From Neoroseomonas alkaliterrae (GTDB lineage Bacteria > Pseudomonadota > Alphaproteobacteria > Acetobacterales > Acetobacteraceae), in the NCBI RefSeq assembly GCF_014199195.1, contig NZ_JACIJE010000005.1, forward strand, positions 62,001 to 126,000: a stretch of DNA of 64,000 nucleotides. The letters run 5' to 3'. How positions within the stretch are numbered: position 1 is the first letter of the stretch; every line of letters begins with the position of its first letter. This document shows positions 6,486 through 13,362 of the stretch, one piece after another. Both the position numbers and the translations under genes were made by a program. The notes under the pieces were generated by a model, which made no database searches, was not told where the DNA came from, and saw only the letters and a list, made by a program, of their open reading frames with translations.

Positions 6486-8362
<1,877 letters not shown>

Positions 8363-8540
8363 TGCTTGACTTCTCCTCCCGCGGGGCGTGGGCTAGCCGG
8401 GCACCGAGAAGCCGCGTCCAGGCGGCGGATCGCACCGGGGAAACGGGCCAGAACCATGCATCTCTTGAAGGACTGCGAGTCATCCGGCCCTCCCTCGGCG
8501 GCGTGCTGGCTCAGGGAGGCTAAGTGTCGCGGCGATCGAG

Positions 8541-8574
8541 TGTCAAGGAAGATTGACGTATTGATTCCTTGACA
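8541..8574. promoter_or_regulatory. Inverted repeat operator in the bchF/ppaA divergent promoter
   Basis: Perfect 10-bp arms TGTCAAGGAA (8541-8550) and TTCCTTGACA (8565-8574) are separated by 14 bases. Each arm contains a TTGACA hexamer reading outward, one toward bchF and one toward ppaA, so both promoters could use an arm as the -35 box. No strong -10 box is evident 17 bases downstream on either side. The first arm with its flank, TGTC-N10-GACG, differs from the known PpsR/CrtJ consensus TGTN12ACA at one position. I infer an operator for PpsR, whose gene lies just downstream. Binding is not shown by the sequence. Confidence 0.65.
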
Positions 8575-8615
8575 TCCGCGCGCCCAGGGAATGAAGTCGG
8601 CAAGGGAGAGACTTC

Positions 8616-9560
8616 ATGGCCGCTAAGCCGATGACCGGTCACGAACGCAGTAGCGAGGCCGAGGCGGCGGGCAGCGAGGCTGCACCCCTATTCCCACCGG
8701 CTTCCGAGATTCGCGTCACCGTCCCTCCGGCCGCGACCTCGGCCTCCGAAACCGCCGCCGCGGCCGTCAAGCGGCGCAGGCACCGCGTCTCGGTGATCGC
8801 GCGCACGCTCGAGACCGACATCATCCCGCGCCTGATGCTCGCGCACCGCGCGGCCTCGCCCGCCGCCTATCTCGACAGCCGCGTCACCGACGCGCCCACC
8901 GAGGCGGACATCGAGGCGGTGCTCGGCCTCGCGATGCGTGCCGACCTGCAGGGCGCGCTCGCCTATCTCGAGGCGCTGCGCGCGCGCGGCCTCGGGCTCG
9001 AGCGCCTCTACATCGAACTCCTCGCCCCGGTCGCGCGCAGGCTCGGCGTGATGTGGGAGGAGGATCTCTGCGACTTCACCGCGGTCACAATCGGCCTGTC
9101 CTGCCTGCACCAGATCGTGCGCGAATACAGCCCGACCTTCGTCACGCGCACGCCCCGCGCCGAGCCCGACCGGCGCGCGCTGCTCGCGACCATGCCGGGC
9201 GAGCAGCACAGTTTCGGCCTGCTCGTCGTCGAGCAGTTCTTCCGCGGCGCCGGCTGGGATGTGTGGTCCGGCTCCGGCGCCGACCGGGCCGAGATCATCG
9301 AGGCCGTGAGCCGCGTCTGGTTCGGTGTCGCCGGCTTCTCGATCGCGAGCGAGATGCACCTGAACGGCCTCGCGATGCTGATCCGCGATGTCCGCCGCGC
9401 CTCGCGCAATGCCGGTCTCGGCATCCTGGTCGGCGGGCCACTCTTCCTCGAGAAGCCCGAACTGGTGGGGCTGGTCGGCGCCGACGCCACCGCCACCGAC
9501 GGGCGCGACGCCACGCTCCAGGCCGAGACCCTGCTGGCCCTGCTCGGGCGGCAAGTCTGA
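8616..9560 (+). CDS. ppaA: Cobalamin-binding photosynthesis regulator PpaA/AerR
   Basis: PpaA/AerR proteins bind B12 and act as light- and redox-responsive antirepressors of PpsR/CrtJ. The protein has 314 residues: a low-complexity N-terminal part, a helical region around residues 75-175 typical of the B12 cap domain, and a C-terminal B12-binding Rossmann-like domain. The motif GEQHSFGLLVVEQFF supplies the histidine expected to ligate cobalt, in place of the full DxHxxG motif. The later GGPLF is the glycine turn of the fold. The ATG is preceded by AGGGAGAG. It lies directly upstream of ppsR, the conserved order in purple bacteria, and divergent from bchF. Confidence 0.9.
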   Translation: MAAKPMTGHERSSEAEAAGSEAAPLFPPASEIRVTVPPAATSASETAAAAVKRRRHRVSVIARTLETDIIPRLMLAHRAASPAAYLDSRVTDAPTEADIEAVLGLAMRADLQGALAYLEALRARGLGLERLYIELLAPVARRLGVMWEEDLCDFTAVTIGLSCLHQIVREYSPTFVTRTPRAEPDRRALLATMPGEQHSFGLLVVEQFFRGAGWDVWSGSGADRAEIIEAVSRVWFGVAGFSIASEMHLNGLAMLIRDVRRASRNAGLGILVGGPLFLEKPELVGLVGADATATDGRDATLQAETLLALLGRQV

Positions 9561-9654
9561 TGCGGCGCCGGGGCCACACCCCGCCGATCGTTCCGCAAGC
9601 CGCGGCGAATCCTGCGCCTTTGCTTGGATTCGGCCGGTTGCGGGGGCCGGGCCA

Positions 9655-11121
9655 ATGAATAGAAATGGGGAGACGAGGAAGGAAAAGGCGGACCGCGCGG
9701 TGAAGTCCTTCAGCACGCCACGGAAGACCGTCGGGGATCTGGATGCGGATGCCGCCGCCGCGCTGATCAGCGCCGCCGCCGACATCGCGCTGATCCTCGA
9801 TGCCGAGGGCATCATCCGGGATGTCGCCTTCAGCAGCGCCGAGCTCGCCGCGGAATTCGTGGCGCATGGCTCCTGGCTCGGCCAGCCCTGGATCGAGACC
9901 GTCGCGCGGGACAGCCGGCCCAAGGTCGAGGAACTCACCCAGGGCGCGGCGCCCCAGGGGTCGCGCTGGCGCCACGTCAATCAGTTGTCGGGTGACGGCA
10001 ACTCGGTGCCGATCCTCTATTCCACGGCGCCGATCGGCAAGGCCGGCCGCATCGTCGTGTTCGGGCGCGACCTGCGCCCCGTCTCGCGGCTGCAGCAGCG
10101 CCTCGTCGAGGTGCAGCAATCCATGGAGCGCGACTATTCGCGCCTGCGCCAGGCCGAGACGCGCTACCGCCTGCTGTTCCAGATGTCGCCCGACCCCGTC
10201 CTGATCCTGGACGGGACCACACAGCGCGTCACCGAGGCCAACCCGGCCGCCCTGCGCCTCTTCGGCAAGGAACCGCGGCGCGCCGTCGGACGGCCGATCA
10301 CCGAGATCCTCACACCCGACACGCGCCCGGCCGTGCAGGCTCTGCTCGCCGCCGTGCGCACCGCCGGCCGGGGCGACGACGTGCCCGCACGCCTCGCCGA
10401 GGGCGAGGCGGAGGTGAGCATCTCGGCCTCCACCTTCCGGCAGGAAGGCGCGCTGTTCTACCTGGTCCGCATCGCGATGTCGGACCCCGGCGCGGTCGCC
10501 CTGCCCCCGGCCAAGACGCAGCTTCTCAAGCTGATCGACGCGGTGCCCGACGCCTTCGTGGTGGCCGGGCCGGACGGGCGCATCGTCACCGCCAACGCCG
10601 CCTTCCTCGACATGATCGAGCTGGCCTCCGAGGACCAGGTGCGCGGCGAACCGCTCGACCGCTGGCTCGGCGCGCAGGATGTCGAGACCGAGGTGCTGCT
10701 CGGCCATCTGCGCAACCGCGGCTCGGTGCGCCTCTACAGTTCGACGCTGCGCGGCGAGCACGGGCTGCGCACGGAGGTCGAGATATCGGCCGTCACGGTC
10801 ATGAGCGGCGGCAAGCCGTGCTTCGGCTTCTCGATCCGCGACGTCGGCGCGCGCCTCCGCCCGCCGCCGAGCACCGGCATCCGCCCCACCCGATCGGTCG
10901 AGCAGCTCACCGAGCTGATCGGCCGCGTGCCGCTCAAGGACCTGGTGCGCGAGGCGACGGATGCGATCGAGCGCCTGTGCATCGAGGCCGCGCTGGAGCT
11001 CTCCGGCGACAACCGCGCTGCCGCGGCCGAGATGCTCGGCCTGTCGCGACAGAGCCTTTACGTGAAGCTTCGCCGCTATGGCCTCGGCGACCTCGGGGCC
11101 GAGCCGGGCGAGGCGGGATAG
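9655..11121 (+). CDS. ppsR: Photosynthesis gene repressor PpsR/CrtJ
   Basis: Redox-responsive repressor of bch, crt and puc genes. The 488-residue product has an N-terminal PAS-like region (about 45-150), a coiled linker (about 150-180), two further PAS domains (about 180-290 and 300-400) and a C-terminal Fis-type helix-turn-helix (about 440-480, AAAEMLGLSRQSLYVKLRRY). Only two cysteines are present, about residues 389 and 442; the second is in the DNA-binding domain, as in CrtJ. A GTG at 9700, preceded by AGGAAGGAAAAGG, is an alternative start giving 473 residues, closer to the usual length. It sits between ppaA and bchG, as in many purple bacteria. Confidence 0.92.
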   Translation: MNRNGETRKEKADRAVKSFSTPRKTVGDLDADAAAALISAAADIALILDAEGIIRDVAFSSAELAAEFVAHGSWLGQPWIETVARDSRPKVEELTQGAAPQGSRWRHVNQLSGDGNSVPILYSTAPIGKAGRIVVFGRDLRPVSRLQQRLVEVQQSMERDYSRLRQAETRYRLLFQMSPDPVLILDGTTQRVTEANPAALRLFGKEPRRAVGRPITEILTPDTRPAVQALLAAVRTAGRGDDVPARLAEGEAEVSISASTFRQEGALFYLVRIAMSDPGAVALPPAKTQLLKLIDAVPDAFVVAGPDGRIVTANAAFLDMIELASEDQVRGEPLDRWLGAQDVETEVLLGHLRNRGSVRLYSSTLRGEHGLRTEVEISAVTVMSGGKPCFGFSIRDVGARLRPPPSTGIRPTRSVEQLTELIGRVPLKDLVREATDAIERLCIEAALELSGDNRAAAAEMLGLSRQSLYVKLRRYGLGDLGAEPGEAG

Positions 11122-11128
11122 GGGCCGG

Positions 11129-12052
11129 GTGTCGGGCCGCGCAGAACTCGACGCCGCGCCCGCCACGCAAACCCGCGCCTACCCTGCGCCCGGGGCGGTG
11201 CTGGAACTGCTCAAGCCCATCACCTGGTTCCCGCCCATGTGGGCCTTCCTGTGCGGCGCGGTGGCTTCGGGCGCCGCCTTCGGCGAGGCGTGGCTGCTGA
11301 TCGCCGCGGGCATCCTCCTCGCCGGGCCGCTGGTCTGCGGCATGAGCCAGGCCGTGAACGACTGGTTCGACCGCCATGTGGATGCGATCAACGAGCCGCA
11401 GAGGCCGATCCCTTCGGGCCGCATGCCCGGCCGCTGGGGGTTGTGGGTGGCCGTGGCCTGGACCGGCGTCTCGCTCGCCTGGGGCGCGATGCTCGGCGCC
11501 TGGGGCCTGATCGCCACGGCCTGCGGCGTCGCGCTGGCCTGGGCCTATTCGGCGCCGCCGCTGCGGCTGAAGGCGAATGGCTGGTGGGGCAACCTCGCCT
11601 GCGGCCTCGCCTATGAAAGCCTGCCCTGGATCACCGCCGCAGCGGTGCTGACGCAGGCGGCGCCGAGGCCCGCGGTGCTCGCGATCGCGCTGCTCTACGG
11701 CCTCGCCGCGCACGGGATCATGACGCTGAACGACTTCAAGGCGATCGAGGGCGACCGCCGCAGCGGCATCCGCTCGCTGCCCGTGATGCTGGGGCCGGAG
11801 CGCGCGGCGCGCGTCGCCTGCTGGTTCATGGCGGTCCCGCAGGCGGTGGTGGTGGCACTGCTGCTCGCGATGGCCGCGCCGCTGGAAGCCGCGATTGTCG
11901 CCGCGCTGCTCGCCGGGCAGGCCTGGGCCATGCGGCGCATGCTGACCGACCCGAGGCGGCTCGCCCCCTGGTACAACGGCACGGGCGTCGTGCAATTCGT
12001 GCTCGGGATGCTGGCGAGCGCCTTCGCCCTGCGCGCGGGGGCCGGGCTGTGA
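11129..12052 (+). CDS. bchG: Bacteriochlorophyll synthase BchG
   Basis: UbiA-type prenyltransferase that esterifies bacteriochlorophyllide a with geranylgeranyl or phytyl diphosphate in the membrane. The 307-residue protein has the family segment LELLKPITWFPPMWAFLCG near the N-terminus, the first Asp-rich motif NDWFDRHVDAIN, the second motif NDFKAIEGDRRSG, and about eight hydrophobic helices. I chose the GTG at 11129, eight bases after the ppsR stop, because the upstream ATG (11078) lies inside ppsR and adds residues not found in relatives. The stop overlaps the next gene as GTGA. It is probably transcribed with ppaA and ppsR. Confidence 0.94.
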   Translation: MSGRAELDAAPATQTRAYPAPGAVLELLKPITWFPPMWAFLCGAVASGAAFGEAWLLIAAGILLAGPLVCGMSQAVNDWFDRHVDAINEPQRPIPSGRMPGRWGLWVAVAWTGVSLAWGAMLGAWGLIATACGVALAWAYSAPPLRLKANGWWGNLACGLAYESLPWITAAAVLTQAAPRPAVLAIALLYGLAAHGIMTLNDFKAIEGDRRSGIRSLPVMLGPERAARVACWFMAVPQAVVVALLLAMAAPLEAAIVAALLAGQAWAMRRMLTDPRRLAPWYNGTGVVQFVLGMLASAFALRAGAGL

Positions 12053-13362
12053 CGGCGCGCGGCCTCTCCTGGGGTGGCATCCTGCGCGTCGGCCTCGTGC
12101 AGACCGCACTCGGCGCGGTGGTGGTGCTGACCACCTCGGCGCTGAACCGCGTGATGGTGGTCGAACTCGCCCTGCCCGCCACTCTGCCGGGGCTGCTCGT
12201 CGGCATCCACTACGCGCTGCAGATGCTGCGGCCGCGCTGGGGCTACGGCTCCGACATGGGCGGCCGGCGCACGCCCTGGATCCTGGGCGGGATCGCGGTT
12301 CTGGCCCTGGGCGGGCTTCTCGCGGCCTGCGCGACCGCGCTGATGGGGGTTGCGCTGTGGCCGGGGGTGGCGCTGGCGGCGGTCGCCTTCGCGCTGATCG
12401 GCCTCGGCGCCGGCGCGGGCGGGACATCGCTGCTCGTGCTGCTCGCCGCGCGCGTGGACGAGGCGCGGCGCGCCGCGGCGGCCTCCATCGTCTGGATCAT
12501 GATGATCGCGGGCTTCGTGCTGACCACCGCGATCGCCGGGCGCTTCCTCGATCCCTACACGCCGGAGCGGCTGATCGCCGTCTCTGCCTGCGTCTCGGTC
12601 ATCGCCATGCTCGTCGCCACGCTCGGCGTCATCGGCATCGAGGGCCCGGCCGCGGCGCGCGCGGCGCCCGAACCGGCCAGCAAGCCGCCCTTCCGCCAGG
12701 CGCTCGCCGAGGTCTGGGCGGAACCGGAGGCGCGCCGCTTCACCGTGTTCATCTTCCTCTCCATGCTCGCCTACAGCGCGCAGGACCTCATCCTCGAACC
12801 CTTCGCCGGCACCGTCTTCGGCCGCACGCTCGGGCAGAGCACGCAACTCTCCTCGCTGCAGAACGCCGGGACGCTGATCGGCATGATCCTCGTCGCGGTG
12901 GTCGGCTCGGCCTTTGGCGGGCGCTTCGCGCACACGCTGCGCGGCTGGGTGGTGGGCGGCTGCCTGTTCGCCGCGGCAGTGCTGGCGCTGCTCGCCGCGA
13001 GCCCGATGCTCGGCGAGGCCTTCCCGCTCGCCGCCGCCTTCTTCGCGCTCGGCCTCGGCAACGGTGTCTTCGCGGCGGCCGCGGTGGCCTCGATGATGAA
13101 GATGGTCGGCGAAGGCCGCGGCCGGCGCGAGGGCACGCGCATGGGCCTCTGGGGCGCGGCGCAGGCGGTCGCCTTCGGCATCGGCGGCCTCGCCGGCGCG
13201 GCAGCGGTGGATGTCGCGCGCCTCGCCCTCGGTGCGCCGGACGCCGCCTATGCCCTCGTCTTCGCGGTGGATGCCGGGCTGTTCGTGGCCGCCGGCATCC
13301 TCGGCGCGCGCATCGGGCGCGCGCGCCGGGCGGCCTTCGGCCCGATGGTCGCGGCGCGATAG
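12049..13362 (+). CDS. PucC/LhaA-family MFS transporter (Bch2-like)
   Basis: Twelve-helix MFS-like membrane protein of the BCD/PucC family, whose members help assemble light-harvesting complexes or handle bacteriochlorophyll. The 437-residue product has LNRVMVVELALPATLPGLLV, then RPRWGYGSDMGGRRTPWILG, a motif shared by PucC, LhaA and the Bch2 (orf428) protein. The position between bchG and bchP is the one occupied by bch2 in Rhodobacter. It starts with GTG overlapping the bchG stop. The exact role of Bch2 proteins is not settled, so I give no symbol. Confidence 0.88.
   Translation: MTARGLSWGGILRVGLVQTALGAVVVLTTSALNRVMVVELALPATLPGLLVGIHYALQMLRPRWGYGSDMGGRRTPWILGGIAVLALGGLLAACATALMGVALWPGVALAAVAFALIGLGAGAGGTSLLVLLAARVDEARRAAAASIVWIMMIAGFVLTTAIAGRFLDPYTPERLIAVSACVSVIAMLVATLGVIGIEGPAAARAAPEPASKPPFRQALAEVWAEPEARRFTVFIFLSMLAYSAQDLILEPFAGTVFGRTLGQSTQLSSLQNAGTLIGMILVAVVGSAFGGRFAHTLRGWVVGGCLFAAAVLALLAASPMLGEAFPLAAAFFALGLGNGVFAAAAVASMMKMVGEGRGRREGTRMGLWGAAQAVAFGIGGLAGAAAVDVARLALGAPDAAYALVFAVDAGLFVAAGILGARIGRARRAAFGPMVAAR

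Follow-up and report, generated by a model that had tools for sequence, protein, structure and literature searches.

The 64,000-nucleotide stretch of Neoroseomonas alkaliterrae DNA that was analysed as a whole (the window) contains an inverted repeat in the gap between bchF, which is read on the minus strand, and ppaA, which is read on the plus strand and is followed directly by ppsR. PpsR (CrtJ) is a light- and oxygen-responsive repressor of photosynthesis genes, and PpaA/AerR is its B12-binding coregulator. The domain search with the ppaA product found no DNA-binding domain. Between bchG and bchP there is also a PucC/LhaA-type gene (12049-13362; PF03209, 305 bits), which was missing from the earlier operon list. 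The features of the locus are as follows.

7775-8362, minus strand: bchF, first gene of bchFNBHLM (PF07284, 210 bits; TIGR02020, 192.9 bits)
8354-8371, plus strand: second PpsR-type site, TGTAGGCATTGCTTGACT, a weakened copy of YGTAARCATNGCTTGACA over the bchF start codon (matrix rank 3 of 63,983)
8517-8522, minus strand: -10 box (TAGCCT) of the predicted bchF promoter, conserved in 74 loci
8541-8546, minus strand: -35 box (TTGACA) of the predicted bchF promoter; the spacer to the conserved -10 is 18 bp in Acetobacteraceae-like loci and 17 bp in others
8541-8574, no strand: 34-bp candidate composite operator TGT-N12-ACGT-N12-ACA, here TGTCAAGGAAGATTGACGTATTGATTCCTTGACA, with conserved outer TGTCAA/TTGACA and ACG core at fixed spacing
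8541-8558, plus strand: left PpsR-type site TGTCAAGGAAGATTGACG (TGTN12ACG; matrix rank 1 of 63,983)
8556-8559, no strand: central ACGT common to both sites (ACG in 26/26 and ACGT in 25/26 family gaps)
8557-8574, minus strand: right PpsR-type site TGTCAAGGAATCAATACG (CGTN12ACA on the plus strand; matrix rank 2 of 63,983)
8569-8574, plus strand: possible -35 box (TTGACA) of a ppaA promoter, a tentative role; as a half-site invariant in the family and near-invariant beyond
8592-8597, plus strand: possible -10 box (TGAAGT) of a ppaA promoter, 17 bp from the -35, with only A-A and T partly conserved
8616-9560, plus strand: ppaA/aerR (PF02310, B12-binding, alone), ppsR next
9655-11121, plus strand: ppsR/crtJ (ORF 9388-11121, start inferred; TIGR02040 equivalog, 465 bits against a cut-off of 275)

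The repeat itself was exactly as the preliminary description had claimed: the arms 8541-8550 (TGTCAAGGAA) and 8565-8574 (TTCCTTGACA) form a perfect 10+10 inverted repeat around a 14-nt spacer (GATTGACGTATTGA), and each arm carries an outward TTGACA (8546 to 8541 on the minus strand, 8569-8574 on the plus strand). The accompanying statement that it lies in the only sizeable gap of the window does not agree with a crude gene call, which gives several other gaps of 230-630 bp. The significance of the bare palindrome was also dropped: perfect repeats with arms of at least 10 and a spacer of at most 20 number 10 in the window and 3-14 in 20 Markov resamples, so a 10+10 repeat is ordinary for a GC-rich window. 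The 8541-8574 repeat is the sole AT-rich one among the 10. The inner GGAA/TTCC of the arms is not conserved, and pairing of the inner arms (positions 7-12 with 23-28) is barely above the expectation from column composition, so the 10+10 length is a chance extension. TGTCAA-N22-TTGACA occurs once in the N. alkaliterrae genome, all other places having 2 mismatches.

What is conserved in the Acetobacteraceae is the outer boxes and the centre, and on this count the element stands well apart from chance. PpaA was detected in 81 of 249 family genomes, and all 26 gaps in which both bchF and ppaA were readable contained TGTCAA-N22-TTGACA with the ACG core (ACGT in 25), while positions 7-12 and 23-28 were variable. 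The comparison of bchF-ppaA gaps of relatives that the preliminary description had proposed thus found outer boxes and core in 26/26, and the objection from lack of conservation failed. The conserved unit is TGTCAA-N9-ACGT-N9-TTGACA, equivalent to TGT-N12-ACGT-N12-ACA. This exact 16-base pattern was present in 79 of the 249 genomes, in one copy each except for one genome with two, and the reversed-pattern control gave 0 matches across the same 249 genomes. The two-copy genome (G017) has near-identical sequences on contigs C122 and C201, possibly from a duplicated or mixed assembly.

Written in this form, the element contains two PpsR-type sites that overlap by C8557-G8558 and have their centres 16 bp apart. 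Each departs once from the consensus TGT-N12-ACA (TGTcaN8tgACA), where its inner end reads ACG or CGT; since only one of three canonical bases is thereby lost from each site at the common edge, the ACG/CGT ends are a symmetrical compromise. The inner half of the right site (CGTATT) is degenerate in N. alkaliterrae. The earlier picture of a 10+10 palindrome under one repressor is therefore replaced by two overlapping PpsR-type sites with a common ACGT core, the inner arm bases being free.

To score the sites, we used a weight matrix of 12 R. sphaeroides PpsR ChIP sites (Table 2, PMC4344238), which come from an order without the composite in our data. Over 63,983 window positions the left site (19.9), the right site (11.0) and the bchF start-codon site took ranks 1, 2 and 3. 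Among 127 distinct elements the median scores were 18.9 for the left half and 18.2 for the right half, and 127/127 left and 125/127 right halves were above the top 0.1% of the window, high half-scores that are partly built in by the selection of these elements on outer boxes and core. Both outer half-sites are near-invariant across the 127 elements. When compared with random middles of equal composition, 83% and 86% of the halves scored higher than the median control, which makes the inner bases a modest additional argument; their composition is biased towards the PpsR half-site (T 73%, T 62%, G 63%, then A or C, A, A). At genome level, TGTMARN6YTKACA with at most 1 mismatch had 8 matches, compared with 5 in the reversed control, and 4 of the 8 fall in the photosynthesis cluster (the bchF/ppaA composite, bchE, crtE and bchC). 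Genome counts of plain TGTN12ACA were uninformative (160 matches, 174 in the reversed control), and a loose window scan with YGTMARN6TTGACA at 3 mismatches gave a count below chance.

The preliminary description had called one arm plus flank one base away from the PpsR consensus, which understates the match: TGTN12ACG and CGTN12ACA are established PpsR variants, bound in R. gelatinosus in the pucB and crtI footprints (PMC4452267), and a CGT-type site is a PpsR ChIP target at prrA in R. sphaeroides (PMC4344238). The bchC promoter of N. alkaliterrae, outside the window (L051, about 1475-1518; G000:C5), has two TGTN12ACG sites 8 bp apart, the spacing seen at R. capsulatus bchC, and neither is a strict TGTN12ACA. 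The bchF/ppaA region is occupied by CrtJ/PpsR in Rhodobacter (PMC5362033, PMC4344238), and in Dinoroseobacter bchF is derepressed when PpsR sites are mutated (PMC10890935). Matrix ranks 1 and 2 support the proposal of a non-standard PpsR layout, with PpsR as the likely binder.

A consensus sigma-70 scan gave no match on either strand, which leaves conservation as the evidence for promoters. On the bchF side, conservation is strong for TTGACA-N18-TAGCCT among Acetobacteraceae-like loci and for TTGACA-N17-TAnnnT elsewhere, and the left outer half-site is therefore taken as the bchF -35. The -10 in 74 loci reads T 88%, A 86%, G 81%, C 78%, C 64% and T 93%, and the transcript start is predicted near 8510. 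On the ppaA side the predicted leader is about 12 nt, with traces of a -10 alone conserved there. The earlier reading of the TTGACA boxes as promoter elements is supported on the bchF side, with its conserved TAGCCT at 18 bp, and is less certain on the ppaA side, with its weak -10 and short leader. On these patterns, occlusion by the predicted operator is well supported for the bchF promoter and plausible for that of ppaA. Another short block conserved across Acetobacteraceae lies at 8384-8396, some 25-35 nt ahead of the bchF start codon (GGCGGTCCGCT in relatives, for example, and GGGCGTGGGCT here).

The YGTAARCATNGCTTGACA site over the bchF start codon (CAT being the complement of ATG) was found in 46 Acetobacteraceae loci, 30 of them with TGT..ACA, at a median of 181 bp from the composite. 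At its 3' end the window copy TGTAGGCATTGCTTGACT has ACT in place of ACA, which weakens it. Since PpsR/CrtJ site pairs 45-500 bp apart are in use in R. capsulatus (PMC6199135), looping between the two elements is plausible in Acetobacteraceae.

Outside the family, the exact composite pattern was found in 10 of 385 class genomes, and its reversed control in none of them. All 10 have bchF, which is present in just 27 of the 385, and the best match upstream of bchF had at most 2 mismatches in 23 of these 27 loci. Among named loci, from a scan that kept the best 80 of 555 matches and so an uneven sample, 75 of 90 were within 2 mismatches of the composite, nearly all with divergent ppsR or ppaA-ppsR; shuffled upstream sequence typically gave best scores of 6-7 mismatches. 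The named loci with the composite include Bradyrhizobium, Rhodopseudomonas, Sphingomonas and Caulobacteraceae (alphaproteobacteria), Rubrivivax, Rhodoferax and Variovorax (betaproteobacteria), and Thiorhodococcus, Thiocystis and Thiodictyon (gammaproteobacteria), a spread across classes that may be due to horizontal transfer of the photosynthesis cluster. The composite was absent from all 10 named Rhodobacterales loci (Rhodovulum, Roseobacter, Tateyamaria, Sulfitobacter, Roseinatronobacter and Thalassococcus), where separate canonical sites lie about 95-145 bp apart in most; 13 of the 15 composite-lacking loci carry canonical TGTN12ACA sites instead. PpsR was above the TIGR02040 cut-off in 16 of 16 phototroph genomes tested, a set with no PpsR-free phototroph for contrast. 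The alphaproteobacterium G592 has two composites, one with a single mismatch in the bchF-ppaA gap and one that is exact (L037, 1501-1534) in the ppaA-ppsR gap, 21 bp before a ppsR start codon. In Thiodictyon, which has no ppaA beside bchF, the composite separates bchF from ppsR. Because of these two cases, the comparison favours PpsR over PpaA as the protein that reads the composite.

The reading that we consider very probable is that the 34-bp element is a PpsR operator for the divergent bchFNBHLM and ppaA-ppsR transcripts, occupied by a tetramer on two overlapping sites. Two 18-bp outward-pointing sites overlapping by CG, with centres 16 bp or about 1.5 helix turns apart, would place two PpsR dimers on opposite faces of the DNA, and a dimer of dimers could span both. 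Bound PpsR would cover the -35 of bchF and, probably, of ppaA as well, so that the bacteriochlorophyll genes and PpsR's own synthesis would be repressed together; PpaA with B12 would then modulate the DNA-bound PpsR. In Acetobacteraceae the start-codon site, some 180 bp distant, probably makes repression stronger, either through looping or as a roadblock. Simultaneous filling of all four half-sites is uncertain, because there may be no room for two recognition helices over the common ACGT. The same difficulty is met by a toggle, in which one PpsR dimer sits on either the left or the right site and represses bchF or ppaA-ppsR preferentially: the central CG would otherwise need reading by two recognition helices, and the two sites are unequal in N. 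alkaliterrae (19.9 and 11.0). However, the half medians over the 127 elements are similar, both outer half-sites are near-invariant, and a tetrameric form of CrtJ on paired sites has been described (PMC9144470), which makes the toggle rather unlikely.

In Rhodobacter, PrrA and FnrL take part in the control of photosynthesis genes, and a reading of the element by FnrL, PrrA/RegA or another factor, with an incidental likeness to PpsR sites, would fit some copies (L007) that hold TTGAC-N4-ATCAA, one base off an FNR-type site. As an FNR/FnrL site, TTGAT-N4-ATCAA was rejected, its second half not being conserved across the 127 elements (positions 22-26 at about 79, 54, 28, 31 and 50%). Matrix ranks 1 and 2, the divergent ppsR beside bchF in nearly all loci and the second G592 composite before ppsR also speak against another regulator, which we regard as very improbable. 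Still less credit can be given to two divergent sigma-70 promoters whose -35 boxes merely happen to face outward at a fixed distance. This would account for TTGACA on both sides and the conserved -10 on the bchF side, but it leaves unexplained the ACG core, the exact 34-bp spacing over three classes and the inner half-site bias, and the ppaA -10 is weakly kept despite a near-invariant TTGACA. If the element is the PpsR operator that we prefer, it is quite possible, though short of probable, that proteobacterial photosynthesis clusters ancestrally used the overlapping operator as their PpsR autoregulation switch, that alpha-, beta- and gammaproteobacteria have retained it with unchanged geometry and Rhodobacterales have come to use separate sites in its place, and that the shared core, with dimers on opposite faces, gives PpsR a binding mode (cooperative or mutually exclusive) unlike that of the bchC type. 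The geometry of the ancestral switch would then depart from the bchC type that underlies models of redox and B12 control.

The PpsR consensus and spacing rules come largely from Rhodobacter, plus one Rubrivivax study. Most of the non-Rhodobacterales lineages read here have the overlapping layout at the junction that controls repressor, coregulator and bchFNBHLM, and a TGTN12ACA scan is blind to it. Published PpsR site counts may for this reason be underestimates, and inferences based on them may have to be revisited. One example is Sediminicoccus sp. KRV36 (Acetobacterales), which was compared by means of its published survey and also has bchFNBHLM and ppaA-ppsR: from database sites, PpsR sites were reported only at bchC and puc and none at bchF/ppaA, and the study reasoned from this low number (PMC10949492). 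In the literature searched, mostly without subscription work (such as earlier studies of Bradyrhizobium, Rhodopseudomonas and R. capsulatus), we found no description of overlapping PpsR sites. The regulator, the site type and the genes are already known, and the overlapping layout is new within that literature. It makes the effect of spacing on PpsR cooperativity and redox response testable with a short probe, one core and many natural variants.

The bchF-ppaA region of Rhodobacterales has the regulator family, the genes and the intergenic location in common with the composite, but its canonical sites are separate whereas those here are merged; four PpsR sites, two of them tested by mutation, are known in Dinoroseobacter shibae (PMC10890935), and PpsR ChIP sites in R. 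sphaeroides (PMC4344238). CrtJ/PpsR operators occur over the -10/-35 boxes of bch, crt and puc promoters, and paired ones likewise have two TGTN12ACA-type sites per promoter and tolerate ACG/CGT variants. The two sites are 8 bp apart at R. capsulatus bchC, 9 bp at R. gelatinosus pucB and 8 bp at crtI (PMC5362033, PMC4452267, PMC9144470). Known pairs thus lie 7-9 bp or 45-500 bp apart, whereas the composite has a spacing of -2 bp, that is, an overlap, and its centre distance is 16 bp compared with 26-27 bp in the known close pairs. Unlike those paired operators, the composite pair would serve two divergent promoters.
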